Source of the DNA: a virus
DNA: 64,000 nt
Virus record (IMG/VR): IMGVR_UViG_3300018481_000019
Location: 1 to 64,000 of that record
Direction: 5' to 3' (one strand)
The translations under genes were made by a program, and so were the position numbers. The notes under the pieces were generated by a model. It had not been told where the DNA came from and did not search any database. It was given only the letters and a program-made list of their open reading frames with translations. Each line of letters opens with the position of its first letter. Position 1 is the first letter of the stretch. Below are positions 33,043-64,000 of the stretch, one piece after another.

Positions 33043-35996
33043 CCCAGAATCGGGCCAGGGCGGTGCCAAGCACCGCTCTGGTCGCTGCTCGCTCATGGGA
33101 AGCCGAGCTTCACCCGCGGGGCCGGGATGGGAAGTTCATCGAAAAGCTCGGCATGGTCAAGCTCTTCGACTTCGTCCATCCCCGCTCTAAGGAACAGATT
33201 TCAGAATCGACCGGCGTAGTCAAGAACATCTTTGGCGGCGACCGCATCATGGTGGAACTACCCGATGGGGTGACGGTCCCGGTCAAGTCCAACCAGATCG
33301 AATCGCTTGGCGAGAAGGCACGACTCACCCTGTATCGGGGTGAAGGCGATCTGGACAATCCGTCGTACTACACGCCGGAGTCAGGGGAAGCAGGGGGATG
33401 GTGGACGAGCGACCGTGATGCGGCAGACCGATACGCCAAGGGTGTTCCTGGGGGGAAGGTCTACGAAATCGAAGTCGAAGGGTCAGAGGTAGAGCCAAGG
33501 GGTGCTCATTACTTCATCTCTGACCCGACGGTTCGATCAAGGCGACGATTGACCGACTCCGGCGCTCTTTACCAAAACGAGAATTTCCTAGACACCGTCA
33601 AGCAAGTCGATGCCGCCGAATTCCACAAGGGATTCGCTGAAGCTCGCCAGGGTCGGTACGGAGCCTTCCTTAGTGATTTCGATGAAAGCCACTTCGCTCA
33701 GGAAAATGTCGATGTCTACTCGGCGTTCGACGGGAAGGTGGGTGCGGCTCTCACTCGCCATGAGGACGGTCGAGTTGAAATCGGTTCCCTCTATGCCTTG
33801 GAGGGAGCGCCACCTAAAGCCGGGATCGACCTACTCCGATATTTACTGGACGAAAAAGGGGTCAATTGGCTCAACAACTTCGATGGGCCACTGACCGATA
33901 TGTACGAAGCGAACGGGTTCAAGGTCGATACCTCTGATCCCTGGAACGAAGAGTATGCGCCGGATGGATGGGACTATGAGCGGTTTGACAATCCCGCATA
34001 CATTACAATGTCCCGTAAAATGGAAAGACCTGTAAGGGGAGCAGCAAGTGGTAGAAGCATTGACACCGGAACAACTGGAACAGATTCGGACGAGTCTCTA
34101 CGCCAAGACCGAAGCACGGCTCGGCAAGGAATGGGTCGCGTCCCACCAAGAGTTGATGGACGAGCAGTTTCAGATGATGCAGGACTACGGGCTTCTGGAC
34201 GAAGTCCTCTTGGAGCCGACGCTCTAACAGCATCGGTCAGAGTGGAGGCGATGCGCGCCTTCGTTCACAATCCGCACACGGTCTTGGTGTCTTTCACCGC
34301 CGCTGACTGGAACCCCGACCTTCACCCGAGAGGTCACGACGGCAAGTTCATTGAGACGCTTGGCCTGATTCATCTCATTGATATGGCGGGCTTTCGCCAC
34401 GGTCAGAGGGGCGACAAGCGGGTCCAGGGTCAAGTCCAAGAAATCATCCCCGACCCTGACGACCCCGGCAACCCGATCATTCGGGTGAAAATGACCGATC
34501 CCCGATGGGACGCTTCTGCATTCGGGGAGACATTCGATGCTCGGAGCTACCAAGTCTCGGCTCGGGAACCGGGCAAAGCGACGATTCCAAAAGAGCCAGT
34601 TGTCGATCTAGCGGGCGAACTGTTGCCTGACGAGCCTCCGTCAGTTACCCCCATAGCGACCGACCTTGTCCCGTCGATCACCGAATCCGACATCGGGGTT
34701 GGAATGGCTCTGGCTCCAATGGCGAAGCCTGGTGGGTGGGACGGGTTGTCGCCAGCGGCAAAGCAATCGTGGATCACGGATCAGATGCAGGCGGACCTCA
34801 GTGCGTTTCGGGGAGCGCCCACAGTTTTCAATTTGGAAAGCACTGATCCTGAAGTCGCATTCAATCTCGCCAACCGATACCGGGAGCTAACCGGCATCGA
34901 CACGCCGACCGCGCTGTGGGTCGATGGGGTTGTCACCAACGCATCGGCTCATTTGATGAACGACGAATTGGTCAAGCCGACTTCAGCGATTGCCGTGGCC
35001 CATCCCGGCACCAAGCACCCTGGCGGCATTGGCCCGATCACGAACCGCAAGGCCATAGTTTTGAATCAAGTTCACTTCCAAGACGACAAGACGTGGGCCA
35101 AAGAGAAGGCCATGAGTTCTGGCGGGTCGTTTCCCTGGTCGGTCGGCTCTACCCAAGGCGATTACACGGCGACGATGGTGCATGAGTTCGGACACCACCG
35201 GCAGTTCCGGTATCTGGCGGAGACGATGCTGGAAGCTGGTCAGCCGTTTTCAAAAGTGAGACATGCCGACGGTTTCGGCCTCATGCCGGATTCTTCTAAT
35301 TGGCCCGAAGTCCAGGCGGCCCGGTATGAGATTCAAAAACTGGCTCCCTCTCAGTACGGGTTGAGCAAGTCTTCAGAGGCATTCGCTGAAGTGTGGGCCG
35401 GAGTTGTTACCGGCTACGTCCCGATTTCACCTGAATTGCAATCTGCGTGGGACTCATGGCATCTCGGAATGGACATTCCCGGTCAGATGCCGCCGACTCG
35501 GTACACCCCCGACGAGCTTGTCGATTATGGATCACTCGCTCCCGAAGAGCTAGATGCGTATTGGGCTGAGGCTTCTGCCCTTTTGGAATTGCCGGGAATG
35601 CGTGAGCACTACCCCCAAACCGCTGCGCTCTACGACTCATGGGCCGCTGGAACGGTCTACGCCGAGTCCGACTTCGGGGAGCCGATTGAGTTCCCGAGCG
35701 AGAGCTTGGAACTTGAACCAGCGTTGATGCAGGCTCGGTCGGTTCAGGAAATCAAGGCCACCAATTTTTCGGAAGTCGAATCCTTCATACGAGAAGCAGA
35801 GAAGACACAGGGCGGCGCGTGGTCGTTCTTCCCGACATTCGGCTCGGTAGACATAGTGCGAGCAGCAACACCGTCTCAAATTCCTGATGATTATTACAGC
35901 CCATCAAGTAACCGAATTTTCTACAAGGGCAAGTGGCAGACTTTCACCCCGGCAGCAATTATCCGAGAGCAGAACAGAGGGATGGGGTCCGATTGA
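33039..35996 (+). CDS. multidomain head-associated protein: HPRG/ART-like/GNAT-like and HPRG/metallopeptidase-like, probably two genes joined by an indel
   Basis: As written this is one 985-aa frame (GTG overlapping the protease TGA). First half: HPRG module (residue about 24), an ADP-ribosyltransferase-like stretch (LYRGEGD near 97, WWTSD near 121, VYEIEVEGSE near 142-150) and a GNAT-like segment (about 245-324). Second half: HPRG module (about 428) and a zinc peptidase motif HEFGHH (about 715) with SEAFAEVWAG (about 779). Residues about 328-400 are an Arg/Gly/Ser-rich out-of-frame reading of the small gene at 34,048. Removing one A from AAAA at 34,017-34,020 ends the first part at TAA 34,032-34,034; the second part could start at GTG 34,240. 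Confidence 0.7.
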   Translation: MTQNRARAVPSTALVAARSWEAELHPRGRDGKFIEKLGMVKLFDFVHPRSKEQISESTGVVKNIFGGDRIMVELPDGVTVPVKSNQIESLGEKARLTLYRGEGDLDNPSYYTPESGEAGGWWTSDRDAADRYAKGVPGGKVYEIEVEGSEVEPRGAHYFISDPTVRSRRRLTDSGALYQNENFLDTVKQVDAAEFHKGFAEARQGRYGAFLSDFDESHFAQENVDVYSAFDGKVGAALTRHEDGRVEIGSLYALEGAPPKAGIDLLRYLLDEKGVNWLNNFDGPLTDMYEANGFKVDTSDPWNEEYAPDGWDYERFDNPAYITMSRKMERPVRGAASGRSIDTGTTGTDSDESLRQDRSTARQGMGRVPPRVDGRAVSDDAGLRASGRSPLGADALTASVRVEAMRAFVHNPHTVLVSFTAADWNPDLHPRGHDGKFIETLGLIHLIDMAGFRHGQRGDKRVQGQVQEIIPDPDDPGNPIIRVKMTDPRWDASAFGETFDARSYQVSAREPGKATIPKEPVVDLAGELLPDEPPSVTPIATDLVPSITESDIGVGMALAPMAKPGGWDGLSPAAKQSWITDQMQADLSAFRGAPTVFNLESTDPEVAFNLANRYRELTGIDTPTALWVDGVVTNASAHLMNDELVKPTSAIAVAHPGTKHPGGIGPITNRKAIVLNQVHFQDDKTWAKEKAMSSGGSFPWSVGSTQGDYTATMVHEFGHHRQFRYLAETMLEAGQPFSKVRHADGFGLMPDSSNWPEVQAARYEIQKLAPSQYGLSKSSEAFAEVWAGVVTGYVPISPELQSAWDSWHLGMDIPGQMPPTRYTPDELVDYGSLAPEELDAYWAEASALLELPGMREHYPQTAALYDSWAAGTVYAESDFGEPIEFPSESLELEPALMQARSVQEIKATNFSEVESFIREAEKTQGGAWSFFPTFGSVDIVRAATPSQIPDDYYSPSSNRIFYKGKWQTFTPAAIIREQNRGMGSD
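34048..34227 (+). CDS. small helical protein, 59 aa, hidden in another frame
   Basis: GTG at 34,048 with ribosome site AAGGGGAG, TAA at 34,225-34,227. The product (VVEALTPEQLEQIR..., ending LLEPTL) is a well-formed acidic helical protein, whereas the long frame across the same bases is low-complexity Arg/Gly/Ser. So this is probably the true coding frame here. A TAA in the same frame lies 14 bases upstream, fitting a stop for the gene before it. Possibly a small partner or immunity protein between two effector genes. Confidence 0.65.
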   Translation: MVEALTPEQLEQIRTSLYAKTEARLGKEWVASHQELMDEQFQMMQDYGLLDEVLLEPTL

Positions 35997-44067: not shown

Positions 44068-44937
44068 TCAAGATTCTGAATCACTATAACGATCATGTTT
44101 GCCCCCTGTGACGAACTTGACATTCAGATATTCCAGAGCCGCTTCCGGCGAATCATCAGCCAGAAGGCACGGCTTCCGATAGTCGCACCAGGCACAGTGT
44201 TGCCCCGGCGACGGGTAGTTGCTCTCTTCGTCAATGGCTCTCAGCATGTCAGTGACGATGCGTTCGATGTTGACGATTCGATTCGGAGTGGCGGTGGCGG
44301 TGCCGGGAATCGGGAAGCGATGAATCTCGGGGTAGCGCCCCTTGACCAAGATGGTGTTGGCGGCATGAGGCATCGGTTCGTCAGGGTTGGCGAGAGATTC
44401 GATCCCCATGTAGACGTGGTGCTGGTAGCTGTGCTCTAGCTTGGCCCTGGTCCCGTTGTCGAGCCGACCCACGGTTTTGAAATCGTTGAGCAAGAGGAAG
44501 CCCGAGTCCACGTAACGGAACTTCACATCGACCTTGCCCCGGAGCAGGACATCTCCACCGAGAATGGGAGCTTCGATCTGCTCTTCGACGGCGACCACTT
44601 CCAAGCCGTCGTCCTCACCGGACTCGGCAATCCACTCGACGTAGCGCTCAATCAGCTTCCGACCGATCACGGTTTCCTTGTAGAGCGCGTCGATTTCCCA
44701 CGGAGCGGCGGCATGGTCTTCCTGCCACGCCATATCCTTCGCTGAGAGAGCGTTGAATAGCCCTACGGGGTCGTCGGTGTGACCTCCGTACAAGAACTCC
44801 AAAGCCTTGTGAACTCGGCTTCCTAGCGCTCTTGCGCCGTGTCTGACCTCTGGCGGGTGGAAGTCGTGAACGTAGTTCCAGGCCCACAGCCGACGGCAAG
44901 TGAGGAAGTGGTCGATGTCCGAGAAGGTGAAGATCAT
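44068..44937 (-). CDS. Cas4/AddB-type PD-(D/E)XK exonuclease
   Basis: 289 aa from ATG at 44,937 (ATGA overlap; an in-frame earlier start is shadow). FSDIDHFLTCRRLWAWNY gives the first Cys; GSRVHKALEFL is the His-bearing motif; LLRGKVDVKF and LLLNDFKT supply the catalytic Asp and D-x-K; the C-terminal HCAWCDYRKPC supplies three more Cys. The four Cys are placed to hold a 4Fe-4S cluster as in Cas4 and AddB. It likely resects DNA ends for recombination with the Sak4-like protein. Confidence 0.85.
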   Translation of the reverse strand: MIFTFSDIDHFLTCRRLWAWNYVHDFHPPEVRHGARALGSRVHKALEFLYGGHTDDPVGLFNALSAKDMAWQEDHAAAPWEIDALYKETVIGRKLIERYVEWIAESGEDDGLEVVAVEEQIEAPILGGDVLLRGKVDVKFRYVDSGFLLLNDFKTVGRLDNGTRAKLEHSYQHHVYMGIESLANPDEPMPHAANTILVKGRYPEIHRFPIPGTATATPNRIVNIERIVTDMLRAIDEESNYPSPGQHCAWCDYRKPCLLADDSPEAALEYLNVKFVTGGKHDRYSDSES

Positions 44938-45038
44938 TCTTGTGGGGGCCAAGGCCAGAAGTACCCGACGAGACACAGCACCACAATCTCGGTCACGAAC
45001 CAGATCAGAAGAATGTGGCTTTTCAAAAAGTTGCTCAT
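44934..45038 (-). CDS. single-pass membrane peptide, 34 aa
   Basis: ATG at 45,038 and TGA at 44,936-44,934, ATGA overlaps at both ends. One hydrophobic helix (HILLIWFVTEIVVLCLVGYF) then WPWPPQE. Exact overlaps with both neighbours favour a real gene. Confidence 0.55.
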   Translation of the reverse strand: MSNFLKSHILLIWFVTEIVVLCLVGYFWPWPPQE

Positions 45039-45250
45039 ACCGGCACTGCCTCTCTCACTCGCTCGGGCCACAATTCAGACGGACAGCCGCAATCGGCTAG
45101 AGCCTTGGTCGCTTGACCCATTGCGGTCCATCCCGCCAGCGGGTCGCCATTGTCTCGCAGACAGTGGGCTTTGAAAATTCCTAGCTCGGCTTCGATCATC
45201 CGAGCCTTGTGCTTGTTGGTCGAAGCGTGAGACAGACGTAAGAGATTCAT
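45035..45250 (-). CDS. small hypothetical protein, 71 aa
   Basis: ATG at 45,250 in an ATGA overlap. Helical, with LLRLSHASTNKHKARMIEAEL and two Cys near the end (DCGCPSELW). Not recognised. Confidence 0.65.
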   Translation of the reverse strand: MNLLRLSHASTNKHKARMIEAELGIFKAHCLRDNGDPLAGWTAMGQATKALADCGCPSELWPERVREAVPV

Positions 45251-45411
45251 TTGGTGGTGTTCGCAATGAGCATTTTCCAAAACTCCAAGGCCGCTGCCTC
45301 AGCGATCTTCACCGAGAACCCGGCATCAATCATTTTGGCCTTGAATCCCGCCACCAACGCGACGACTCCCTCTGTCGCATCTGCCATTTGTGCAAAACTG
45401 TCAGTGTCCAT
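45247..45411 (-). CDS. small hypothetical protein, 54 aa
   Basis: ATG at 45,411 (MDTDSFAQMADATEGV) is preferred because the upstream in-frame part is a shadow of the gene at 45,401. Helical with an amphipathic C-terminus (AALEFWKMLIANT). Not recognised. Confidence 0.6.
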   Translation of the reverse strand: MDTDSFAQMADATEGVVALVAGFKAKMIDAGFSVKIAEAAALEFWKMLIANTTK

Positions 45412-45586
45412 GCTGTTCCAATAGCCATTCGTGGTACTTGTCTCGCCACTGAATCGCGGCCTCTTGCCACCCTTCCGTCTTGTCCAGTCCATCCCATCCG
45501 GCGTTAGCGATGATGCCCCAGGCTTCGTAGAGCAAGCTACCTTCGATGCTGGTTTCTGACGGAACGGAATCTCGCTCACGCTTCAT
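45401..45586 (-). CDS. small hypothetical protein, 61 aa
   Basis: ATG at 45,586, overlapping the clamp gene by 11 bases. Trp-rich helical protein (LLYEAWGIIANAGWDGLD, WRDKYHEWLLEQHGH). Not recognised. Confidence 0.65.
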   Translation of the reverse strand: MKRERDSVPSETSIEGSLLYEAWGIIANAGWDGLDKTEGWQEAAIQWRDKYHEWLLEQHGH

Positions 45587-46667
45587 CAGGCAACCTCACC
45601 GGCATCATTATGAATCGAACGCTCGGGTCTTTAGGACCGCTGATTCGGAACATGGTTTTCGGCTCGGAGAATCGAAGCTCAACTTCATCGCCGGTCAGCG
45701 ATTGAATAACGGGGCGGAACAGATCGACATTCAGACCGATGGTGAGAGGGAGTCCGGGCCACTTGCCACTGATATGTTCCGAGCTATCGCCAAGCTCGGT
45801 GCGAGTGGCGAGTACGTCCGCCCCTGGTGCTTCCGCTTCCAATTTCAACCTCATGGGAAGGTGAAGCCCGGTGAGGACTTGCGCTCGGTCACAGGCGGCG
45901 AGCAGTTCTGACTTGTTGGTGGCGAAGACCCATCCGTCAACCTTGTCGTCGGTTTCCAAAATGGTTTTGTAGCTCGGGAATTTCTTGGAGCTACGAAGCG
46001 TGCTGATCGCATTTCGCCCCTGGCGAAAGGTGACTCGGTTCCGTTCCACCACCACTTCGACATCGCCACTTCCGGTCAGCACTTTTTCGGCATGGCGGAA
46101 GATGGTTGCGGGTATGACTGCCGACTCGTCAAATTCAAAAACCACTCCGCTGTCGATCACTCCGATGCGGAATCCATCGGTGGTCACTATCTGCCCGTTC
46201 TCGGTTCCGTTTTCAAAAAGCACCAACTCGGCTTTGGGAACCGCCCCGAGATACCCGATGATCTGCGAGAGCCAATTGAGCGGGAGCTTGAAATCAGCCC
46301 GCTTCCTAATAGAGATTTCGGGAAAGGCGGTGGCATCGCCATACCGCAATTTGAATTTGGGTCCGTGCTCGCTCTTCAGTTCCACGGTCCCGTCACTGGC
46401 GGTCAAGGTGACTGCCCCGTCGGGCAAGGTGCGGACGGCCCGAGCAGTCTCCGGTGGAAGCAGGCTTTTGAAACCGGCTCCGGCTCCGACTTCAGCGCCG
46501 AACGCCGTCTTGATGGTGAGTGTTGAGTTGGTGCCAGTGAGAACTACCCATCCGTCAGTAAACATTTCCAAGTGAATCTGACGATAGGTGTCGATCTTGG
46601 AAGACAGGGCCAACTCGACCTTGTCCAAAGCAGCGCTGAGTTCTTCCTGAGTAGTGACGAGTTTCAC
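45576..46667 (-). CDS. DNA polymerase sliding clamp, beta-type
   Basis: 363 aa taking GTG at 46,667; an earlier in-frame start would overlap the upstream gene. The three-domain pattern of bacterial DnaN is visible: LVTTQEELSAALDKVE at the start, TDGFRIGVID in the middle domain, a C-terminal domain with LPLTIGLNVDLFRPVI and the terminal MFRISGPKDPSVRFIMMPVRL. It tethers the phage polymerase encoded at 62,749. A clamp loader was not seen, so host loader use is inferred. Confidence 0.85.
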   Translation of the reverse strand: MKLVTTQEELSAALDKVELALSSKIDTYRQIHLEMFTDGWVVLTGTNSTLTIKTAFGAEVGAGAGFKSLLPPETARAVRTLPDGAVTLTASDGTVELKSEHGPKFKLRYGDATAFPEISIRKRADFKLPLNWLSQIIGYLGAVPKAELVLFENGTENGQIVTTDGFRIGVIDSGVVFEFDESAVIPATIFRHAEKVLTGSGDVEVVVERNRVTFRQGRNAISTLRSSKKFPSYKTILETDDKVDGWVFATNKSELLAACDRAQVLTGLHLPMRLKLEAEAPGADVLATRTELGDSSEHISGKWPGLPLTIGLNVDLFRPVIQSLTGDEVELRFSEPKTMFRISGPKDPSVRFIMMPVRLPDEA

Positions 46668-46699
46668 AGTCTGAGTCCTGTCCGATTCAAGACGACTGA

Positions 46700-46921
46700 C
46701 TATACCGTCCGTAGAGAGCCGGGGTGCTGCCAGCGAAGCCATTCATCGGGGGTCATTCGGACCAGGGCGGAGCAAGCGCAATCGGGTTGGTGACACGCTC
46801 CCCGAGACTCAGAACTGATCTTGATTCCGGCATGGGACAAATCGGGGTGGTAGCAGTTTCGACACCAAGCATGGCCGCCCATCGAAGAGCGGGCGATCAC
46901 GAATTCAAGCGGCTCTTCCAT
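46700..46921 (-). CDS. small Cys/His-rich protein, 73 aa
   Basis: ATG at 46,921, overlapping the upstream gene by 17 bases. WCRNCYHPDLSH and GACHQPDCACSAL provide C-x2-C and further Cys/His, likely a zinc site. The C-terminus has MTPDEWLRWQHPG. A DNA-associated role is possible; not recognised. Confidence 0.65.
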   Translation of the reverse strand: MEEPLEFVIARSSMGGHAWCRNCYHPDLSHAGIKISSESRGACHQPDCACSALVRMTPDEWLRWQHPGSLRTV

Positions 46922-47329: not shown

Positions 47330-47448
47330 TGTTCCTCCCGTCTGCGCTTCTCGTTCATCTGTCTTACGGCGAGCACGATCATAAGCACAACCAATGTCCC
47401 GAGCGTGATTGCGATGCCGACAAGCATCCCCTGTGTGAATTCACTCAA
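47326..47448 (-). CDS. single-pass membrane protein, 40 aa
   Basis: TTG at 47,448 overlapping the stop of the transglycosylase (TTGA), TGA at 47,328-47,326. One hydrophobic helix (MLVGIAITLGTLVVLMIVLAV) and a very basic tail (RQMNEKRRREEQ). Sitting after a cell-wall enzyme, it could help export or membrane access. Confidence 0.6.
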   Translation of the reverse strand: MSEFTQGMLVGIAITLGTLVVLMIVLAVRQMNEKRRREEQ

Positions 47449-48110
47449 TGACACTCACCCCTGTTCCACGGCGACCAGTGACCCCAACCCCCATCATCGT
47501 AGAGCGCCTTGCTGATCGAAAGGTTGACATCGGGGTTGAAAAGATCGGATTCTGAATAACCGAACTTCCCGGCCCAACTCGGGAGCACTTGCATGAGTCC
47601 CGATGCGCCGGAACTTGAATTTTGAGCGTTGGGATTGCCGCCCGATTCGTGTTGCATGAGGCAGAGAGCAGTGTCGGCAAGCCCCGCTCCGAAGTAGGAA
47701 GTCACCAGGCCGCGCCACTGTTCCACACCATCGCCCATACCGCTGTCTGCGGGCTGTTCCGGCTCTTCGCTTACCTCTGGCTCAGGCTCCGGTTCCGGCT
47801 CAGGAGCGGCCTCAGAAGCCGTCTCAGAGGCTTCCAAGGTCACTGGCTCGGAGACGATTGGCTCATGGCGAGTCTCCCGCATGACCTCCATCTCTTCTGC
47901 CGTCCGGTCCCGCTCGGTGACAATCGGGGGAGCGGGAATCGGGGGAGCGGGAATCGTGGATTCGGGAAGGACTGGTAGTCGAACGATTTGATGTCGGGAA
48001 GCCAAGATTGGCTCGGGACTGATGTGATCGTCTGCCAAAAGAGAACTGCCACCGGCAATGCCGACGGCAGCGACGAACGTGGTGAGCGCAGCAATGATCG
48101 CTTGTCTCAT
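47445..48110 (-). CDS. secreted lytic transglycosylase (SLT-type)
   Basis: 221 aa with a signal peptide or anchor at the N-terminus (about 1-26), a Pro/Glu-rich linker with EPEPEPEPEPE (about 45-125) and a C-terminal SLT domain: ALCLMQHESGGNPNAQN with the catalytic Glu, SGASGLMQVLPSWAG, and NLSISKALYDDGGWGHWSPW. It would cut glycan strands of the host wall from outside the membrane. Encoded in the early operon, unlike the M15 endolysin, so wall weakening or remodelling before lysis is possible. Ribosome site AGGAG. Confidence 0.85.
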   Translation of the reverse strand: MRQAIIAALTTFVAAVGIAGGSSLLADDHISPEPILASRHQIVRLPVLPESTIPAPPIPAPPIVTERDRTAEEMEVMRETRHEPIVSEPVTLEASETASEAAPEPEPEPEPEVSEEPEQPADSGMGDGVEQWRGLVTSYFGAGLADTALCLMQHESGGNPNAQNSSSGASGLMQVLPSWAGKFGYSESDLFNPDVNLSISKALYDDGGWGHWSPWNRGECH

Positions 48111-50439: not shown

Positions 50440-50855
50440 TACTCGGGACCGAACCCGACTAGATGCCGGAGCACGTCACCAAAGCGGGCCTCATGCAATA
50501 GGCGACGACCATTTAATTCGCCGCAGGCGCACTCTTCGATCTTGATGGAGATTCCGTAGTTGTGGTCCGAGTCATTGAACGTCCCGGCGAATTGGTCCCA
50601 CTCGTCCTCACGAAGATCGCTCCACTTCACGACCGAGCAGAGTTCATCCTCAGTCCCGCCGGGACGTAGGTGGTAGGTGGCCTCAAAGTCGTATGGCCCC
50701 CCGTAGTAGCCAGTGCGAGTGTCAATGTCGTCTCCGAGTGTCACCCATCCCCGCTCAATGACGTACTGCGCGACCGCGTCTTTGAATTGGTCTTGCCAAG
50801 TAGTTGTTGGCTTCTCCAATCCGTCAGCAAGTGCTTCCATCGCCCAATCGCTCAT
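50439..50855 (-). CDS. hypothetical protein, 138 aa
   Basis: ATGA overlap with the upstream gene. Acidic, with WQDQFKDAVAQYVIERGWV, a beta-rich middle and EECACGELNGRRLLHEARF near the end. Not recognised. Confidence 0.7.
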   Translation of the reverse strand: MSDWAMEALADGLEKPTTTWQDQFKDAVAQYVIERGWVTLGDDIDTRTGYYGGPYDFEATYHLRPGGTEDELCSVVKWSDLREDEWDQFAGTFNDSDHNYGISIKIEECACGELNGRRLLHEARFGDVLRHLVGFGPE

Positions 50856-51025
50856 TCTTCCTCTTCTCCGGCAGGCTCGCCCTCACCGTCAGCGTGACGA
50901 GCGAGATGCCGTTCGATTGCCTGCTCAAAGGTGGCAATCACTGTCCCGTTGGTCGAGTCCGGTGTTGTCCGGTGCGTCCCGTCGGGATAGTGAAGCCACT
51001 CGTCTCTCGGTGTTACGTTGGTCAT
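50852..51025 (-). CDS. small acidic protein, 57 aa
   Basis: ATG at 51,025 in TAATG directly after the VWA gene, TGA at 50,854-50,852. Starts MTNVTPRDEWLHYPDG and ends GEGEPAGEEEE. Its tight coupling to the MoxR/VWA unit makes it a possible accessory of that system. Confidence 0.6.
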   Translation of the reverse strand: MTNVTPRDEWLHYPDGTHRTTPDSTNGTVIATFEQAIERHLARHADGEGEPAGEEEE

Positions 51026-53103
51026 TAGTACCTTCCCCGCTTGCTGGTGAATGCTTTGTCGAGAGCCTTGGAGATTTCATTCACCAAGACCATCGGGATT
51101 TCGTCTTTGCTCAGATGCCGCCAGTTGATTTCTACGCCCTCTGTGTTCTCAATCGACCGCTTCCGCTGATCGACCCACACAATCGCAACCCCGGCCTTGG
51201 CGAACTTGTCCATCCAGATCGCCCGACGCTCTGGCTCAAAGGTGTTGACCAACTCGTTATCCGAGATGATTACGAGCACCTTGGCTGCGTCCGGTGTGCT
51301 GGTCAGTCCGAGTGCTCCGTCCAGAGCCGCCATTGCGATGTCGAACTCTTCGACTCCACCGTTGGCAGTCCGCTCCCGAACTTCGGATGGAACCTCACCA
51401 GGCTTTAACACCGCTTCGATGTAGGAGCCGAACGTGACCGCTGCGGTCTTGGCATTGATACGGTGGCCCGCCTTGCCCACGATGTAGGCGGCGCTGGCAA
51501 CCATTCCCTGCGCCCAGGACATTGAGCCGGAAGTGTCGGTGGCGATTCCCACGACTGCCGGTGGGCCGAAAGCGTGCTTCCGCTTTTTGTCCACCCAAGG
51601 CTTCGCCGTGGTCATGCGACCCTGCGCCCGCTCCGCCGAGCGCCGTACTGCTTCCCGGCTCTTCAACCGTCCGGTGGGAATGTCGGTCAGAATCTTGGTG
51701 CCAGCGATGGTGGGAACCATCATCGTCTCCAAGTGATTCGCCAGCTTGTTCGATGCCGCCACTTCCTGTGGAGTCGGCTTCCGCACGTTCCATGAGTGAC
51801 CGTCGTAGTTCTGGTTTTTTTCAAAAACGTCTTTGACCGCCTTTCGCTGATCGGCAACGTCCATCATCGGAGTCTCGGTCAGCTTGTCGCTCTCGACCAG
51901 TTCGACAATGGCCTTGCGAAACGATGCCATGCCGTCGTCGGTGGCAACCGAAGTCTCGCCTTCGACTTCGACAACCGGCAGATCGTCAACGTCGGTGAAT
52001 TCGCCTTCGCCCTCACCAGGCTCGTCCTCAGACTTGCCCTCACCGGCCTTGTCGGGCTTGCCCTTACCAGGCTTGTCGCCCTCACCCGTATCGTCGCCGT
52101 CGCCGTCGCCGTCGCCTTCGCCCTCTTCGCCGTCGTCGTCGCCCTCACCATCGGAGCCTTCACCGTCGGCCTCTTCGTCGTCGGACTCGTCGTCGGACTC
52201 GCCGCCGGAGCCTTCGCCCTTCTCGGACTTTTCCTTTTTGGTCTTGTGGCTGCAACCGCCTTCACCGTCGCCGCTGCCCCCATCATCACTCTTGATGTCC
52301 AGGGCTTCGTTCCACTGAACCGCCAGTTCGACCAGTCGATCAAACCCGTCGGTTCGGTGAGCGTCGGTTGCCATTGCTTCGTCGTAGATGTCGCTCAGTT
52401 CGTCCATCAGATCGTCGCCAAGGTGCGCCCTCAGTGCGTTGTCGATGGGAGCGAACTCTTCTGCCGTCAGCGTGCCAGCGGCAGTCCTCCCCTTGACCAG
52501 CGCCCAAACCGCCATTGCGTGACCCAAGCTCTCGTATTTCTCCGGTGTGTCAGCGAGCAGGATTTGGGCAATGGCCCTCAGATATTCCTTGACCCTGAAT
52601 TTGGGTTGCTGCGGGTTGTGAGCATCGACCACCCGTTTTTCGATACGCCCTTCCTCAAAGATCATCAGTGTGTTGATGATTGCCGCCGGAGCCTTGAAAT
52701 CTGCGCTCGCCCAATCCGAGTGCTTGGAGTGACCGCCCTCATGGAGCAGCAATCCGGCGAGCGCCTTGCGAACCCGGTTCACTTTCTTGGTTCCCTCATG
52801 GCTTCCGGCGTGCCGTGCCTTTTGAGAAACCCACCGTTCCAAGCCCGCCGCCGCGTTGACCAACTCAGTGTCGGTCGCACCGCTGGCTTTCAAAAACTCC
52901 CCGACGTGGAGGGTGATGTCGGCGTATCCCGGCGTGTACCAACCCATCGCCGGAGCAGGACCGTCATTGGCATCGACCTTGACCAAGACCCCCCTGGAAT
53001 CCGAGCGGACTCCCAAGGAATGCAGGGTTTCGTTCAGGCTGCTTTGCAGTGCCGTCCGCTGTGGGTCGGTGATGATGGGCGGCTTGACCGCTGTGGTGGT
53101 CAT
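51025..53103 (-). CDS. VWA-domain protein with HEGGH motif (CobT-like)
   Basis: 692 aa, ATG at 53,103 in ATGA, ribosome site TGGAGGG. N-terminal domain has LLLHEGGHSKHS (HExxH-type, residues 121-125) with FEEGRIEKR near 149-157, the pattern of a gluzincin-like metal site. Residues about 265-385 are extremely acidic and Gly-rich. The C-terminal domain is a VWA fold with the MIDAS sequence DTSGSMS near 519-525 and VLVIISDNE. Layout (acidic middle plus C-terminal VWA) resembles CobT, and the ATPase partner is encoded two genes upstream. Confidence 0.8.
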   Translation of the reverse strand: MTTTAVKPPIITDPQRTALQSSLNETLHSLGVRSDSRGVLVKVDANDGPAPAMGWYTPGYADITLHVGEFLKASGATDTELVNAAAGLERWVSQKARHAGSHEGTKKVNRVRKALAGLLLHEGGHSKHSDWASADFKAPAAIINTLMIFEEGRIEKRVVDAHNPQQPKFRVKEYLRAIAQILLADTPEKYESLGHAMAVWALVKGRTAAGTLTAEEFAPIDNALRAHLGDDLMDELSDIYDEAMATDAHRTDGFDRLVELAVQWNEALDIKSDDGGSGDGEGGCSHKTKKEKSEKGEGSGGESDDESDDEEADGEGSDGEGDDDGEEGEGDGDGDGDDTGEGDKPGKGKPDKAGEGKSEDEPGEGEGEFTDVDDLPVVEVEGETSVATDDGMASFRKAIVELVESDKLTETPMMDVADQRKAVKDVFEKNQNYDGHSWNVRKPTPQEVAASNKLANHLETMMVPTIAGTKILTDIPTGRLKSREAVRRSAERAQGRMTTAKPWVDKKRKHAFGPPAVVGIATDTSGSMSWAQGMVASAAYIVGKAGHRINAKTAAVTFGSYIEAVLKPGEVPSEVRERTANGGVEEFDIAMAALDGALGLTSTPDAAKVLVIISDNELVNTFEPERRAIWMDKFAKAGVAIVWVDQRKRSIENTEGVEINWRHLSKDEIPMVLVNEISKALDKAFTSKRGRY

Positions 53104-53534
53104 TCCGCCCTCCAAGTCTCGTCGTCAATCTTGCCGAACAGCCGGTTGTTCCGGGTGCCGCCGTCGTAGCGAGCGGTCGGCTTCTGCTTGGAGGCGATTG
53201 CCTCAATGTCGGACTCGGTCAACTGCACCAGTGTCGGGGTTCCCCGCATGACCGCTCCGATCTTGTCGGACTCGGACGATGCGATCAGCTTCCGCACTTG
53301 CTCTCGGGCATCGGCGTGGCTGAGGAAGGCGTACTCGGACCACCTTGCCTTTTTGCTGCCCCGCTCCCGCTGGTAGAGATAGACGTTGGGTCCGGTGAGG
53401 AACACTTGCACTTGGCTGTGAATTTGTTTTGAATCACGGTAGAACCGGACGTACTCGACGTGAAGCCCGTAGGCATCGACTCCGTCGTGTCGGTCGATTC
53501 TCTCCGCTTTGATTACTTTGGTTTCTGTGGTCAT
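53100..53534 (-). CDS. hypothetical protein between MoxR and VWA genes, 144 aa
   Basis: ATG at 53,534 is 8-9 bases after AAAGGGG; an ATG two codons earlier is too close to it. First gene after the promoter at 53,573. Beta-rich and basic: VKAERIDRHDGVDAYGLHVEYV, NVYLYQRERGSKKARWSEYAF, and a disordered end with RNNRLFGKIDDETW. It may be a substrate or adaptor of the AAA+/VWA pair, judged only from position. Confidence 0.65.
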   Translation of the reverse strand: MTTETKVIKAERIDRHDGVDAYGLHVEYVRFYRDSKQIHSQVQVFLTGPNVYLYQRERGSKKARWSEYAFLSHADAREQVRKLIASSESDKIGAVMRGTPTLVQLTESDIEAIASKQKPTARYDGGTRNNRLFGKIDDETWRAE

Positions 53535-53572
53535 GGGCATCGCCCCTTTCTTGTCTTTGTCTGTCACTCAGG

Positions 53573-53600
53573 ATTATAGCGGGGTGTAATCGCTATGCAA
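53573..53600 (-). promoter_or_regulatory. early promoter, TTGCAT-N16-TATAAT
   Basis: On the - strand: -35 TTGCAT (53,595-53,600), -10 TATAAT (53,573-53,578). Spacer AGCGATTACACCCCGC with the ATTACA element. Leader CTGAGTGACAGACAAAG is shared with the promoter at 55,640. Drives 53,100-53,534 and the VWA gene. Confidence 0.9.
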
Positions 53601-53616
53601 GTCCACCCCGCTCGTC

Positions 53617-54561
53617 TCAGAAGGTCAGAACCTTGGGAGACTTCCCGAACACCGACTTGATCGCCTCTTCGACGTATACCCGATCTTCGGGCCGACTCAT
53701 GGAGACGAAGTTCTCCAAGGCGACATCTTCACCGAATGTCTCTTCGATGTTTTTGAAAGCGATCACTTCCCGCAACTGTGGCGGAGCAGAGACGATTCCC
53801 GACTCGGCCTTCTTGCCCAAGTTCCGTGCCACTTCCACGATGTTCGCTGGAACACCGAGCTTGGCTGCGATCTTCCAATCGGTCTGCATCTCGACGTGGA
53901 CTGCGAACCGGCTCAGAAGGGCTTCCGACATCACCGCTCCCGGCACGTTCGGGTTGGTCGCTCCGAACACCAAGAACCCAGGCTTGGCAGAAACCTTGCC
54001 CCGGTCAGGGTTTGCCGTGACCGAGATTTCGTTTCGCCCGTCCATCAGTGAGTAGACCACCGACAATTGCCGTGGGTCGATCAGCGCAATCTCGTCAATG
54101 AGCAGAGGCCAACCGTTGTCGGCTGCGACCAGCGCCGGACCATCGACCCAAAGGTAGGTGCCGTCGGGCTGCTGGACGTAAGAGCCGATGAAGTCCGCTG
54201 CTTCCGTCTCAATGGAGCCGAGCACCGTGACGACGTTATCCAGAGCCGCTTCGACCAAGGCGGTCTTGCCGGTTCCGGGCGGGCCGTAGAGCAGGAGGCT
54301 CAGTCCCTTGTCGTAGCTCGTCTCCACAAAGGCCACGTCCTGAAACGTGGAGTCGCCCACCTTGACCGTTCTCGGCAAGTACGCCTCACCGTTGGGCCGC
54401 TGGTAGGACTTGTGCAGTGGCTTGATTGCCTTGACCGACTCGACGGCGGGTGCCGACGGCTCGGTTTTGCCAGAAACGAATTCCTTCCCTGGCACGTATG
54501 TTTTGAGTAGATCAGCGTCGAATCGTTTCAGCGCCGAGTCTGTTTCCAAGAGAACACTCAT
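53617..54561 (-). CDS. MoxR-type AAA+ ATPase (CobS-like)
   Basis: 314 aa, ATG at 54,561 with AAAGGAAG. Walker A GPPGTGKT at 93-100, Walker B WPLLIDEIALI at about 151-161, sensor 1 VFGATNPN at 198-205, arginine-finger region SEALLSRF ending at 219. Such ATPases pair with VWA proteins to remodel or metallate other proteins; here the partner is at 51,025. Its own promoter lies at 54,608-54,635, separate from the promoter for the VWA gene. Confidence 0.88.
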   Translation of the reverse strand: MSVLLETDSALKRFDADLLKTYVPGKEFVSGKTEPSAPAVESVKAIKPLHKSYQRPNGEAYLPRTVKVGDSTFQDVAFVETSYDKGLSLLLYGPPGTGKTALVEAALDNVVTVLGSIETEAADFIGSYVQQPDGTYLWVDGPALVAADNGWPLLIDEIALIDPRQLSVVYSLMDGRNEISVTANPDRGKVSAKPGFLVFGATNPNVPGAVMSEALLSRFAVHVEMQTDWKIAAKLGVPANIVEVARNLGKKAESGIVSAPPQLREVIAFKNIEETFGEDVALENFVSMSRPEDRVYVEEAIKSVFGKSPKVLTF

Positions 54562-54607: not shown

Positions 54608-54635
54608 ATTATAGCGCCGTGAAATTGGAATGCAA
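54608..54635 (-). promoter_or_regulatory. early promoter, TTGCAT-N16-TATAAT
   Basis: On the - strand: -35 TTGCAT (54,630-54,635), -10 TATAAT (54,608-54,613). Spacer TCCAATTTCACGGCGC with AATTTCA. The -10 contains the stop codon of the upstream gene. Drives the MoxR gene with a leader of about 40 bases. Confidence 0.9.
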
Positions 54636-55639: not shown

Positions 55640-55667
55640 ATTATAGCGTCCTGAAATTGCAATGCAA
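55640..55667 (-). promoter_or_regulatory. early promoter, TTGCAT-N16-TATAAT
   Basis: On the - strand: -35 TTGCAT (55,662-55,667), -10 TATAAT (55,640-55,645). Spacer TGCAATTTCAGGACGC. Leader CTGAGTGACAGACAAGAC. Starts just after the stop of the Fic gene. Confidence 0.9.
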
Positions 55668-55669
55668 AC

Positions 55670-56146
55670 TCAGGACGCTACTTTCCAAAAGTCCGGTGGG
55701 ACTGCGAGCCTGCGTGGAGCAAGCGCTCCCCGATGGGCATTCCAGAGGATTGCCCCGATTCGTCCGTTGCCGTCAGCGAACGGATGAATCTCTTGGAACC
55801 GCTTGTACCACTCGTCGGCGCTCAGGGTGTCCCAAGCATCGACCAGCAATTCGATCTGCCGGGGAACCTCCCGCCAGGAAACTCCCCTTTCAAATCTGTC
55901 ACCGACCACGACATCGCGATTGCGATAGCCGATGGGGTCATTGGTGCGTGGCTCCACGATGCTCGCCAGTTTTTGAATCTTCTCGACTGTGGGCGGGAGC
56001 ACAACATCGCTCCACTTCTCCCAATCAATGAACTCGTCGTAGGCGTAGCCCCAACCGGCGACCAACCAGGCGACCGACATCTCGCCGCTCTTCTGGCGCT
56101 CGCACTCGGCAGCGGCCCATTCGACAACGTCTTTCCATGCGTTCAT
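55670..56146 (-). CDS. Fic/Doc-family protein
   Basis: 158 aa, ATG at 56,146 with AGGGAG upstream. The Fic motif is HPFADGNGR at 121-129, inside FQEIHPFADGNGRIGAILW, with catalytic His121. The second Arg of the full motif (GNGRxxR) is Ile-Gly-Ala here, so phosphate contacts differ from AMPylating Fic enzymes. Fic proteins modify target proteins with AMP or phosphate; phage examples include Doc. No inhibitory helix (S/TxxxE/DG/N) is obvious. Could be a host-takeover or anti-host enzyme. Confidence 0.85.
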   Translation of the reverse strand: MNAWKDVVEWAAAECERQKSGEMSVAWLVAGWGYAYDEFIDWEKWSDVVLPPTVEKIQKLASIVEPRTNDPIGYRNRDVVVGDRFERGVSWREVPRQIELLVDAWDTLSADEWYKRFQEIHPFADGNGRIGAILWNAHRGALAPRRLAVPPDFWKVAS

Positions 56147-56364
56147 GTTTTCTCCCTTACGATTTGCCACGCCTCATATTCGATGGTGATTGGTTCGTCG
56201 GCGGCGAGAAAGTGCCGCATCAAATCTCGGGCGGGTCGATGATCGACCGCTATCCAAACCTTCGTGGCCCCGAGCAGATCATCTTCGATGCCCCGGTTGA
56301 TTTCAAAAGTCCAGATGGTGCCGTGATCTTCGTACTTCCCGGTGAGTTCTCCGGCGAATGTCAT
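56143..56364 (-). CDS. small beta-rich protein, 73 aa
   Basis: ATG at 56,364 after GGGAGGGA (a GTG two codons earlier is also possible through the GTGA overlap). MTFAGELTGKYEDHGTIWTFEI suggests beta strands; the rest has RPARDLMRHFLAADEP. It ends in ATGA with the Fic gene, so it might be its partner, though no antitoxin motif is seen. Confidence 0.6.
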   Translation of the reverse strand: MTFAGELTGKYEDHGTIWTFEINRGIEDDLLGATKVWIAVDHRPARDLMRHFLAADEPITIEYEAWQIVREKT

Positions 56365-59672: not shown

Positions 59673-59764
59673 AGGTGCCTCTCTTTGATTAGGTATCTCA
59701 ATCCGGCTCCGAGATGTGCGAGCAGATGCCACACACCACGGACCAAGTCTCGGAGGAATTTCAT
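59669..59764 (-). CDS. small amphipathic peptide, 31 aa
   Basis: ATG at 59,764 inside the end of the helicase gene and TGA at 59,671-59,669 inside the next start, so it bridges two genes by 4- and 4-base overlaps. Basic and hydrophobic (MKFLRDLVRGVWHLLAHLG). Membrane-active or regulatory; unproven. Confidence 0.45.
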   Translation of the reverse strand: MKFLRDLVRGVWHLLAHLGAGLRYLIKERHL

Positions 59765-61527
59765 TTTGAAAGCATCTCCATCAAGTCCTTGTCTCGCAAG
59801 ACTTCCTGCGCTCGTTTTTCCTTCGATGAAAGTCGGGCCAACTGGCCTTCCTCCACCGTATCTTCGACCAAGTAGTCAACGTACCGAACGGTTTCGTGCT
59901 TCTCGGAGCCGATTCGATGCACCCGATCTTCGGCTTGGGTGTGGACCGTGTAACTCCACGACCGGACCAGGCGGACCATCGTGCTCGCTGCGGTGAGCGT
60001 GATTCCCTCACCCCCGGCTCGGGTCAGGAGGATGAACGGGACTTCGCCTTTTTGAAAGGACTCCATCGCCGCTTCCCGATCTTCCCCGGTGACATCGCCG
60101 GTAATCATGGTGTAGCCGATCTTGGCCTTGGTCATGGCTCCGGCGGCTAGCTCCAAGAGCTTGCGGGAGTCCGAGAACACGACGACTTGCTGCCCGTCAT
60201 AATCCCCGTCGAGCACGTCTTCCATGAACGAATCGACCTTCGGTGAGTTCTTCGCGTCCATGTGGAAGACACCCTCTGTGTCGATGTGACCGGCGGCGTT
60301 GGCGATCTGCACCAAGCGACCGGCCTTTTCCAAAACCGAGCCGACGGCAATCACGTCTTCCCCGTCCAGTGTCGATGCGAACATTCGCTTTTCGACATCG
60401 TCGTACAGCTTGCGGTGCTTCGCCGGGAGCGTGACCCATCTCGTCTCGTAAATTTTCTCGGGAAGGAAGGGCAGTGCCGCTTCCTTGGTGATACGGCGAG
60501 AGCGAGCGTCAAGGTTCCCAAAGAACTCGTCGGCCCGTCCGGGGTTGATGCCAAGGATTTCCCGAGCGCCCCAATAGTTGAACGTGACATTGCAGTACCG
60601 CTCTATGAATCCGGTCTTCACCGGGTACTCGTCGGGTGCGATGAAGCGGAGCAGGGACCAAAGGTCTTCCGGCGTGTCCTGAATCGGGGTGCCGGTCAGA
60701 CCGATGATGTTGTCCGCTTCCTTGGCGAGATGCCACAGCGCCCGAGTCCGCTTCGACTTCGGGTTCTTGATGCGGTGAGCTTCGTCAGCGATCAGAGTTT
60801 TGAAAGCGATCTTCTGCAACGGGCCGTCGGTCTTCTCGGCCTCCGTCAGCTTCACCGTCGGGAAGGGAGCGTGACGGCTCCGCAAGCGGGCGGTGTCATA
60901 AGAGATGATGTAGAAATCGGCAATCTCAGCGAGCAGGGCATCGACCACCATCGGGCTTCCTTCCACGATCTGCACGGTGGCACCGGGGAAGAATCCTTTG
61001 ATTTCAGTACGCCATGTTCGGAGCATGGACTTGGGAGCCACGATCAGAACCGGGAAGATGTCTTTGCCGTCCGTGGCGGACTCCCCGGCGAGAGCGGACA
61101 GGCCAGCTAGAGCAGTACGGGACTTGCCCGCTCCCGTCTCGTCAAAGAACAAGTAGCGACCGGCGACTCGGATTAGCTCGGCACCAACCTTCTGATACGG
61201 GTACAACTCAGCGAATCCAGGTAGTGTCAAATCTTCGATGTGTGCGGGCGGTTCCTCAATGAGACTGCGAAGTGCGCGGAGATACGCCTTAGTTGCGCCG
61301 GTTTTCTTGCCCCATGCGGTGAGCACGTCACCAAGAACAAGGTCAGCGCCGAACTCTTCACGGAGCGCAAGTGCGGAGGGCCATGAGAGCGGGACGGTCC
61401 AGACTCGGTTGTCGGCATCCCACTTGGCACCGGGAACAGCCTTGACACTTTCTTTGAGTCTGAAATCCGTTTCTACGACGATGCGACCGGGATGGGAGTC
61501 TCGGTAGATTTCAGCTTTGGTCTTCAT
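59761..61527 (-). CDS. SNF2-type DNA helicase/translocase
   Basis: 588 aa. A short N-terminal HARP-like domain (DFRLKESVKAVPGAKWD ... VWTVP), then SF2 motifs: DETGAGKS (129-136), LIVAPKSML, DEAH at 248-251, LTGTPIQDTPEDLWSLL, and in the second RecA domain FILLTRAGGEGITLT and QAEDRVHRIGS. Resembles SMARCAL1-type annealing helicases often present in phages. It likely remodels replication forks or recombination intermediates with the resolvase and polymerase encoded upstream. Confidence 0.9.
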   Translation of the reverse strand: MKTKAEIYRDSHPGRIVVETDFRLKESVKAVPGAKWDADNRVWTVPLSWPSALALREEFGADLVLGDVLTAWGKKTGATKAYLRALRSLIEEPPAHIEDLTLPGFAELYPYQKVGAELIRVAGRYLFFDETGAGKSRTALAGLSALAGESATDGKDIFPVLIVAPKSMLRTWRTEIKGFFPGATVQIVEGSPMVVDALLAEIADFYIISYDTARLRSRHAPFPTVKLTEAEKTDGPLQKIAFKTLIADEAHRIKNPKSKRTRALWHLAKEADNIIGLTGTPIQDTPEDLWSLLRFIAPDEYPVKTGFIERYCNVTFNYWGAREILGINPGRADEFFGNLDARSRRITKEAALPFLPEKIYETRWVTLPAKHRKLYDDVEKRMFASTLDGEDVIAVGSVLEKAGRLVQIANAAGHIDTEGVFHMDAKNSPKVDSFMEDVLDGDYDGQQVVVFSDSRKLLELAAGAMTKAKIGYTMITGDVTGEDREAAMESFQKGEVPFILLTRAGGEGITLTAASTMVRLVRSWSYTVHTQAEDRVHRIGSEKHETVRYVDYLVEDTVEEGQLARLSSKEKRAQEVLRDKDLMEMLSK

Positions 61528-62282: not shown

Positions 62283-62752
62283 CGACGGTTGGCCCGCTGC
62301 TCCGTCGGTGTCGCCCACCGGCAGTTCCCAGGCTCGTAGTTGCCGTTGGGGTCAATGCGATCAAGTGAGTAGTAGGCCACTCGGCTTGTCCAGTCTTCGG
62401 GACTAGGCGGACGTTCACCAACATCAGCGATGAAGTTTTTGAATCCACCATGCCCTAACCAATGTTCGCTCACTCTGATCCCGCGACCGCCGTAGTCCAT
62501 GAAGTCCTTGATGTTTGGATTGAGGCATCGGTCGAGCATCGCCCGATAGACCCGATAGAGAGGATGGTTGTTCTCAGGGGAGTTGCACTTGCTACTTGCT
62601 CCATTCCTCAAATTGTCCGCAAAGACAATTACAGAGTTTCCGCATTCACACCGGCACAGCCACCGAACCTTGTGATACTTCCCACCATTCTCCGCTCTGG
62701 TTATCGCAGTCAATCGTCCAAACTTTTGCCCGGTCAGATCATTGACTCTCAT
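62279..62752 (-). CDS. HNH/AP2-type homing endonuclease
   Basis: 157 aa, ATGA overlap with the polymerase gene. N-terminal zinc-containing part (FGRLTAITRAENGGKY, WLCRCECGN), then YRAMLDRCLNPN and YGGRGI, and the HNH/AP2 end SLDRIDPNGNYEPGNCRW. This is a common free-standing homing endonuclease of phages, here wedged between the resolvase and polymerase genes without disrupting either. It probably invades the polymerase region of related phages. Confidence 0.85.
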   Translation of the reverse strand: MRVNDLTGQKFGRLTAITRAENGGKYHKVRWLCRCECGNSVIVFADNLRNGASSKCNSPENNHPLYRVYRAMLDRCLNPNIKDFMDYGGRGIRVSEHWLGHGGFKNFIADVGERPPSPEDWTSRVAYYSLDRIDPNGNYEPGNCRWATPTEQRANRR

Positions 62753-64000
62753 AGATCAGCCCATGTTTTTCCCGGTCCTGAAATGGAAGCTGTCAGCGGC
62801 ACCATTAGATCGGTGTGCGTCATAGAGGCAAGCATCACCCGCTTGGCCTCTTCGACGTACTTCTCGGGAATAGAAAGCAACACTTCATCGTGAACGGGGA
62901 TCAGCATGTAATCCTCCATCCCGGCGTGACCGAGAGCGAGCAGGGATCGCTTTAGGTATTCGGCAGCAGCGCCTTGAATCTTGAAGTTGGTCGCGGCATA
63001 CAGGGTGGCGGGGTCAACGGGCAAGAACCGGCCTCCGAGAGTCATAACCCCGCCGGTTGCTCGGGCCTCTCGTTCGATGGTCTTTTGCAAATGGAACAGA
63101 GCGGGGTAGGACTCCCTCACTCCCATCTTGACTTCCGCCATGCGCTCAGTTGGGACACCGGCTCGCACCGCCATTGTCTCAATTCCAGCACCGTACAATT
63201 GCGAGTACCAATAGGTCTTCGCCATGTTGCGCCGGGTGTCGGACTTTTCGATGGTGGGGTCTTTGAAAATCTCCCGAGCAGTCTGAAGGAAGAAATCACC
63301 GCCAGCGAAAGCCTCACCGAGCGCCTTGTCTCCGGCGAGCGATGCAGCGATGCGGAGTTCGATCTGCTCGTTATCGACCGACATCAGCACTTCATCTTCT
63401 CGCAGGGGGAGCACGGCTTGTCGAACCAACCGGGACTCGGGGTCGGAGTTGGGCTTGGGCAGAGTTTGTAGCGCCGGGGAACGGATGCTCATGCGTCCGG
63501 TGCGAGCGGCAACGGTGTCGATGGAAGGATGGATGATTCCATCGTGATTGAAAGTGAGGAAGTTGGCGAAGTAGGTGGAAGCCAACTTCTCGGTCTTGCG
63601 TACCCGCATTACCGAGCGGGCTACGTTGGCTGAGTCCCGGTCGCCGTAGGCCACGATCTTTTCCAGCGTCGGCTTATCGACGGCGATACGTCCCTTCTCG
63701 GTGCGCTTGGTGAGCAGCGAGCGGTCGGTGTTGGTGATGAACCAGCGGCCTAGCTCGTCGGGACTTGCCAGATTCACAATGCCCCGGTACGAGAGCTTCA
63801 GACCTTCAGCCTCCGAACTGAGTTCAGCGAATTTCATTCGTGAGAAATCGCCGTCGATCCTCATGCCGTTGTGCTCCATCTGATTCGATAGCGAACGGAC
63901 TCCCATCTCCAAGTCGTAGACCGGCGACTGAATCACTCTTTGAATCTCGGGTAGCTCGTAGATGCGGCTTGTCAGGATCACGTCGAGTGCGGCGTAGTAG
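62749..64000 (-). CDS. DNA polymerase I-like (family A), cut by the window edge
   Basis: The 3' end of the gene; the N-terminus lies beyond 64,000. The first codons visible read YYAALDVILTSRI, the exonuclease motif III (Y-x3-D). Polymerase motifs: A VDNEQIELRIAA, B RRNMAKTYWYSQLYGAG, C IPVHDEVLL. Motif A has Asn-Glu where most family A enzymes have Tyr/Phe-Ser before QIELR, a possible mark of altered nucleotide choice. It should be the replicative polymerase of this phage, with the clamp at 45,576. Confidence 0.9.
   Translation of the reverse strand, partial: YYAALDVILTSRIYELPEIQRVIQSPVYDLEMGVRSLSNQMEHNGMRIDGDFSRMKFAELSSEAEGLKLSYRGIVNLASPDELGRWFITNTDRSLLTKRTEKGRIAVDKPTLEKIVAYGDRDSANVARSVMRVRKTEKLASTYFANFLTFNHDGIIHPSIDTVAARTGRMSIRSPALQTLPKPNSDPESRLVRQAVLPLREDEVLMSVDNEQIELRIAASLAGDKALGEAFAGGDFFLQTAREIFKDPTIEKSDTRRNMAKTYWYSQLYGAGIETMAVRAGVPTERMAEVKMGVRESYPALFHLQKTIEREARATGGVMTLGGRFLPVDPATLYAATNFKIQGAAAEYLKRSLLALGHAGMEDYMLIPVHDEVLLSIPEKYVEEAKRVMLASMTHTDLMVPLTASISGPGKTWADL

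Follow-up and report, generated by a model that had tools for sequence, protein, structure and literature searches.

A gene set on the minus strand of a viral genome fragment encodes a MoxR-type AAA+ ATPase together with a large von Willebrand factor A (VWA) protein, and the N-terminal part of the latter very probably forms a metallohydrolase domain whose active site is intact. The set lies in a 64,000-nucleotide stretch (positions 1 to 64,000 of IMG/VR virus record IMGVR_UViG_3300018481_000019, referred to here as the window) of a 93,817-bp virus contig, and in order of transcription it comprises a 314-residue AAA+ ATPase, a 144-residue protein, the 692-residue VWA protein and a 57-residue protein (Table 1). 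We consider it likely, at a probability of roughly 0.6, that the set encodes an ATP-dependent metalloprotease or remodelling machine, and it probably processes proteins and does not serve vitamin B12 synthesis. The first-pass annotation of this DNA had described the ATPase, the acidic VWA protein and the two small genes with their motifs, every element of which was found in the sequence.

Conservation of the metallopeptidase-like site and of the ATPase pairing

The case for an active site in the VWA protein begins with the HEGGH motif and a second motif, EEGRIE, downstream of it. Relatives were mostly gathered with patterns confined to the VWA domain, leaving the N-terminus unselected, and the signature HExxH-x(~24)-[ED][ED]xRxE was present in 85 of 91 of them, a count that, like the other locus counts given here, includes many near-duplicate IMG/VR loci and does not represent independent events. 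Five of the six exceptions lack the N-terminus, cut off by a contig end or by an internal start; in the remaining one, L008, the motifs are HEALH...LDEARIE. The His, Glu and His of HEGGH are invariant across three alignments (66/66, 20/20 and 14/14 very diverse relatives). Among the 66 N-domains the sole invariant residues are G117, H121, E122, H125, E151, R153, E155 and R206, and in the 14 distant members, which share 11-19% identity with the first (closest pair aside), what remains invariant is the HExxH triad, the two second-motif glutamates at the E150 and E155 positions, the initiator methionine and one alanine. By chance such a combination is rare: when the residues of the window protein were shuffled 20,000 times, HExxH...[ED][ED]xRxE arose in 3 shuffles.

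Structure prediction is consistent with this assignment. The AlphaFold2 (AF2) model of residues 1-272, with a predicted local distance difference test score (pLDDT) of 86.8 and a predicted template-modelling score (pTM) of 0.86, contains a few strands and places HEGGH on a long helix and EEGRIE on the next one, as in zincins. Comparison with the PDB gave weak matches (best E 0.8) that include selecase (probability 0.60) and leukotriene A4 hydrolase, and the top viral structural matches are phage VWA proteins; we tentatively take the modelled domain to be a divergent zincin. Downstream, residues 271-440 are about one third Asp and Glu, and the C-terminal part can be assigned as a VWA domain by its MIDAS (metal-ion-dependent adhesion site) DxSxS motif and downstream Asp, with D523, S525, S527 and D615 invariant in an alignment of 20. 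Profile searches were less informative: the window VWA protein had no Pfam match at E<0.1, the VWA profile included, while its relatives do match; Pfam and PHROGs scans of this protein and of the 144-residue protein returned nothing usable, and a PDB sequence search with the VWA and N-domain profiles returned no relatives.

The degree of conservation also bears on the nature of the site. A chaperone pair resembling RavA-ViaA, in which the N-domain metal is structural, serving fold stability or substrate binding without proteolysis, would agree with the chaperone and remodelling roles of known MoxR-VWA systems (PMC7159879) and with the degenerate site of a Rhodococcus plasmid copy. Against such a structural role, the general-base Glu of HExxH shows the same conservation as both histidines, and a site with structural duties alone could do without this residue; we regard this alternative as unlikely.

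The ATPase belongs to the MoxR/AAA_5 type of AAA+ proteins. It carries a Walker A motif (GPPGTGKT, residues 93-100), a Walker B motif (LLIDE, 153-157), a sensor-1 segment (GATNP, 200-204) and an SRF arginine finger (217-219), and it matches Pfam AAA_5 (E=2e-17, above cut-off), phrog_16448 (6e-59) and phrog_249 (2e-21). That the ATPase and the VWA protein form a pair, as proposed at first pass, is borne out by their co-conservation: every one of the 21 phage records that encode the VWA protein also encodes the ATPase, and in 85 of 91 loci the ATPase gene lies on the strand of the VWA gene, just upstream of it. In Microbacterium phages both genes are present about 40 kb apart. Three Gordonia phages (L002, L003 and L005) encode longer ATPases of 500-677 residues with a long N-terminal extension, and in these an unrelated gene of 228-264 residues sits between the ATPase and VWA genes. 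A PADLOC search yielded P-loop-level matches alone for the ATPase (E 4e-4 or worse) and no known defence system; counter-defence and control of host proteolysis, both suggested earlier, are possible roles.

The intact site is found across a broad range of mobile elements. It occurs in Gordonia, Microbacterium and Actinomycetia phages, in cyanophage 'peptidases' encoded beside CobS, in Gordonia 'CobT-like' proteins, in the 'CobT' of an E. coli phage-plasmid, in a Sinorhizobium phage-like plasmid and in an SXT/R391-type element. Among 82 loci from actinobacterial genomes and plasmids, mostly Streptomyces, pattern matching found the signature in at least 75, to which one further locus (L104) adds HEAGH...LEELWIE; on these mostly Streptomyces chromosomes the ATPase and VWA genes often share a few overlapping bases. 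Three further scans used patterns that partly contained HExxH, and when only loci carrying a pattern without HExxH were counted as independent, the site was present in 11/11, 47/47 and 74/74 of them. The degenerate Rhodococcus plasmid pair (L094:6934-8724) is followed by another ATP-binding protein gene and is perhaps an independent, protease-dead version.

Relation to CobS/CobT and to the B12 interpretation

The literature on tailed viruses takes viral cobST pairs to be vitamin B12 genes and calls the 'peptidase' label of cyanophage CobT mistaken (PMC8651126, PMC9503304). Our comparison separates the two groups at the level of individual residues. All nine cellular CobTs examined have [SAG]-x-x-x-R at the HExxH positions and have thus lost all three H-E-H residues, as the first-pass annotation had anticipated in noting that CobT lacks the motif, and all nine retain the E..R.E motif. 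This group consists of four proteins annotated as cobT, one annotated as a cobalt chelatase and encoded beside cobS, one Photobacterium protein that matches both CobT families, and three homologues 44-49% identical to the latter; genuine CobTs were reached through the Photobacterium homologue, and a family-based search of two Streptomyces genomes and of two alphaproteobacterial plasmids found no CobT. A shifted HDxxxH site in CobT was considered and dropped, with profile and multiple alignments placing [SAG]-x-x-x-R at the HExxH position.

Some of the mobile-element proteins remain recognizably related to CobT. The E. coli phage-plasmid protein and the SXT protein match PF06213 (5e-27 and 2e-12) and both have HExxH, and hhalign of the mobile-element N-domain set against CobT gave 99.2%. 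By these sequence comparisons the N-domains of CobT and of the mobile-element proteins are homologous. Given this homology and the loss of H-E-H in 9/9, CobT appears to be a branch of this family in which the protease is dead.

The window pair itself resembles cobaltochelatase CobS/CobT in its layout, an AAA+ ATPase with a large acidic VWA partner, and so the earlier description of a CobS/CobT-like pair holds for architecture. It does not extend to family membership: the window VWA protein matches neither CobT (PF06213) nor CobT_C (PF11775), both of which are matched by the S. meliloti CobT control, and blastp detected no similarity between the window ATPase and CobS (E about 6 for S. meliloti, 4.4 for Photobacterium). 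Metal insertion, another suggested role, fares poorly, as neither CobN nor a ribonucleotide reductase large subunit is encoded in the 94-kb contig, with a host CobN being possible. The published proposal for archaeal tailed viruses, cyanophages and other tailed phages (PMC8651126, PMC9503304) would have the viral proteins act as a cobaltochelatase pair that joins host CobN and boosts B12 for nucleotide synthesis. The shared AAA-VWA architecture and the homology of the CobT N-domain to the phage-plasmid and SXT N-domains speak for this proposal, but given the replacement in true CobT of a triad that the mobile-element versions keep, the absence of CobT and CobS matches and the gene content of the contig, we consider it very improbable for the set described here.

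The cyanophage CobS and 'peptidase' proteins (phrog_249, phrog_459) share with the window set the two-gene architecture, the site (HEVGH...EDARIE) and a replication-module location, and differ in that the 'peptidase' is ~17% identical to the window VWA protein and is annotated in the literature as a B12 gene. The conservation of the signature in mobile-element versions and its loss in true CobT suggest that the 'peptidase' label is right and that claims of B12 synthesis drawn from viral 'cobST' genes need re-testing. In a literature search that was incomplete, we found no paper making the point that the viral pair differs from CobT at the residue level; this separation appears to be new, as does the linking of the cyanophage, phage-plasmid, integrative and conjugative element (ICE), actinophage and Streptomyces versions.

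The WGR-like third component and a proposed mechanism

The 144-residue protein belongs to the set, in agreement with the first-pass annotation. Among the 80 phage loci that leave room for the gene (window counted once), its family profile finds a homologue in 72, either between the ATPase and VWA genes or immediately upstream of the ATPase, and it finds one in none of the bacterial loci. The 57-residue gene, which had also been placed in a shared four-gene set, has no homologue in the loci examined and was dropped as a system member, leaving the ATPase, VWA and 144-residue proteins as the co-conserved components.

A WGR-like identity for this third component is suggested by its modelled fold and its position. 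The AF2 model (pLDDT 92, pTM 0.85) has as its best PDB matches 2ra8 (probability 1.00, E 4e-3) and many PARP1 WGR structures (probability up to 0.96). In six loci without a 144-residue homologue (L041, L093, L096, L098, L101 and L104) true WGR genes fill the slot beside the ATPase, the one in L093 being annotated as such. The window protein itself has no match to the WGR Pfam family PF05406, which is matched by 1 of 19 aligned members (2.9e-5), a Streptomyces plasmid WGR gene by position and annotation. Sequence profiles do not link the 144-residue and WGR families, and 'WGR-like' accordingly denotes a likeness of fold and position. Small WGR proteins of 80-85 residues are also encoded several kb from the module in DSL-LC01-type phages (L084:11512-11754, L064, L066, L054 and L004:9521-9778), which encode the 144-residue homologue as well.

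In the mechanism we propose, a MoxR/CobS-like AAA+ ring would supply ATP-powered remodelling, the VWA protein would dock to the ring via its MIDAS domain, and the zincin-type domain, built around HEGGH and a Glu from EEGRIE and carried on a long acidic tether, would cut the remodelled substrate. This division of labour, with an ATPase that remodels and a tethered N-domain that cleaves, is suggested by the VWA partner's intact metallopeptidase. The WGR-like protein would be a dedicated partner and might act as an adaptor for substrates or nucleic acids. With the phage's own promoter family driving its expression and replication genes around it, the machine would most likely act on proteins in early or middle infection, perhaps at DNA. 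We infer zinc binding, proteolysis, the adaptor role and the substrate from these features, and docking of the ATPase to the VWA protein by analogy with RavA-ViaA and CobS-CobT.

Several observations weigh against a proteolytic machine of this kind. To our knowledge, the known MoxR-VWA pairs are assembly chaperones and do not carry out proteolysis. None of the PDB matches of the N-domain is significant, the best being the E-value of 0.8 given above, and the zincin label draws on the motif, on how well it is conserved and on weak fold matches. The degenerate Rhodococcus plasmid copy (DGASR / LDAARAH) indicates that the site is not essential everywhere. For the third component, Foldseek E-values for WGR likeness are 0.004 or worse, profile-profile alignment of the 144-residue family with WGR genes gave no support, and in Gordonia phages no 144-residue homologue is recognizable.

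Known systems share parts of this organization. RavA-ViaA and other MoxR-VWA chaperones have in common with the window set an AAA+ ring with a VWA partner as working principle, and ViaA is not known to have a metallopeptidase domain. The E. coli yehI-yehL-yehP locus likewise encodes a MoxR ATPase and a VWA protein, and its YehI presumably carries a WGR domain; YehP differs in having no HExxH, and a relation between the window ATPase and YehL is undetectable beyond the P-loop. The SXT/R391 ICE encodes, next to its bet/exo recombination genes, an AAA+ ATPase and a VWA protein carrying HEAAH...IIEDVRIE, but it is a conjugative element, and three other genes (two hypothetical, one DUF3150) lie between the ATPase and VWA genes. 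Alike in architecture, the level at which the comparison was made, is a MoxR-vWA pair with an N-terminal metallopeptidase reported in 2021 from group 2.2 jumbo phages (PMC7824862; ASV44729.1/ASV44728.2), also tailed phages. Virion assembly was proposed for that pair, whereas the present set lies in a ~94-kb contig, has a third, WGR-like gene and occupies a replication-gene setting; the jumbo-phage report covers group 2.2, and the present set has relatives in phage-plasmids, a conjugative element and Streptomyces. What appears to be new here is the smaller-genome actinophage form and its third subunit, which define a three-part system.

Genomic setting, expression and neighbouring genes

The surroundings of the module point to DNA metabolism, because its neighbours are helicase, polymerase, clamp and exonuclease genes and, in relatives, dnaE and bet/exo. 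In the window, one flank holds genes for an SNF2-type helicase (59761-61527) and a DNA polymerase (62749-63981), and the other holds sliding-clamp and exonuclease genes (44068-46742). In cyanophages the copies are bracketed by exonuclease and clamp genes, phage-plasmid copies adjoin dnaE and the SXT-type copy adjoins bet and exo.

This setting also bears on whether the module is an aid to virion assembly and maturation, with a chaperone-peptidase pair that assists assembly and trims structural proteins. Such a role was proposed for the same architecture in the jumbo phages (PMC7824862), in a report that cites a MoxR-vWA pair needed for tail assembly of Acidianus two-tailed virus, and the major head and tail genes of this phage share the module's strand at a distance of about 16-20 kb. 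In the window, however, genes for portal, tape-measure and tail proteins are on the plus strand at 4-20 kb, and the module itself sits on the minus strand among replication genes; the cyanophage and phage-plasmid copies keep company with replication genes as described; and the intact-site pair also occurs where no virion is built, on Streptomyces chromosomes and in a conjugative element of the SXT/R391 type. Gene setting and presence in virion-less elements together argue against a general role in virion assembly, which we consider decidedly unlikely.

For the metalloprotease or remodelling machine that we favour, a DNA- or replication-linked target is a tentative suggestion, which we think less probable than not. 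More speculative, and in our estimation doubtful, is a fuller scenario in which a WGR-like subunit directs an ATP-dependent metalloprotease to phage or element DNA, which it clears of proteins in replication and recombination, CobT descends from this lineage through loss of the protease site and viral 'cobST' genes have been misread. If this were true, the DNA-clearing machine would be functionally like the eukaryotic p97-SPRTN pair.

The module's organization suggests coordinated expression. An ATGA overlap joins the end of the 144-residue gene to the VWA start and a TAATG overlap joins the VWA stop to the start of the 57-residue gene, and thus these three genes probably form one translationally coupled unit. 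The pattern TTGCA-N17-TATAAT has 6 exact copies in the window, compared with 0.01 expected from shuffles, and exact copies stand before both the ATPase and the 144-residue gene, in keeping with the earlier view that two separate members of one promoter family drive the module. A version of the pattern with N18 spacing matched nothing relevant. Four more exact copies with similar spacers occur on the minus strand at 55640, 57127, 57598 and 61855, and the minus-strand copies, on pattern evidence, appear to mark a co-regulated gene set.

Table 1. Coordinates of the module's genes, domains, motifs and promoter-family members in the window.
Feature	Position	Strand	Basis
MoxR/CobS-like AAA+ ATPase, 314 residues	53617..54561	-	ATG at 54561; Pfam AAA_5, PHROGs, motifs
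ATPase Walker A	54262-54285	-	
ATPase Walker B	54091-54105	-	
ATPase arginine finger	about 53905-53913	-	
144-residue third component, WGR-like predicted fold	53100..53534	-	ATG at 53534; homologues in module, AF2, PDB matches
VWA protein, 692 residues: zincin-like N-domain, acidic linker, C-terminal VWA domain	51025..53103	-	ATG at 53103; alignments
N-terminal metallopeptidase-like domain, residues 1-272	52288..53103	-	AF2, weak zincin matches
HEGGH, predicted zinc-binding/catalytic motif (H121, E122, H125; residues 121-125)	52729..52743	-	Invariance in relatives
EEGRIE, second conserved motif, presumed third metal ligand on following helix	52639..52656	-	Invariance
Low-complexity acidic linker	51970..52287	-	Translation, composition
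MIDAS motif DTSGSMS (residues 523-529)	51517..51537	-	D523, S525, S527 invariant
57-residue acidic gene	50852..51025	-	Open reading frame
Promoter-family member upstream of ATPase	54608..54635	-	Exact TTGCA-N17-TATAAT
Promoter-family member upstream of 144-residue/VWA/57-residue unit	53573..53600	-	Exact TTGCA-N17-TATAAT

Other genes of the window lie outside the module. Near the portal region are two very long open reading frames on the plus strand, of 2136 residues (22488-28898) and 985 residues (33039-35996), with no PHROGs match at 1e-4. A 221-residue protein (47445-48110, minus strand) has a C-terminal SLT transglycosylase domain (Pfam 2.5e-10) and is possibly a cell-wall or lysis protein. 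Two genes upstream of the ATPase region, a Fic/DOC-family gene (55670-56170, minus strand) encodes HPFADGNGRIG and matches Pfam Fic (7e-6, above cut-off), a possible AMPylation or toxin gene.

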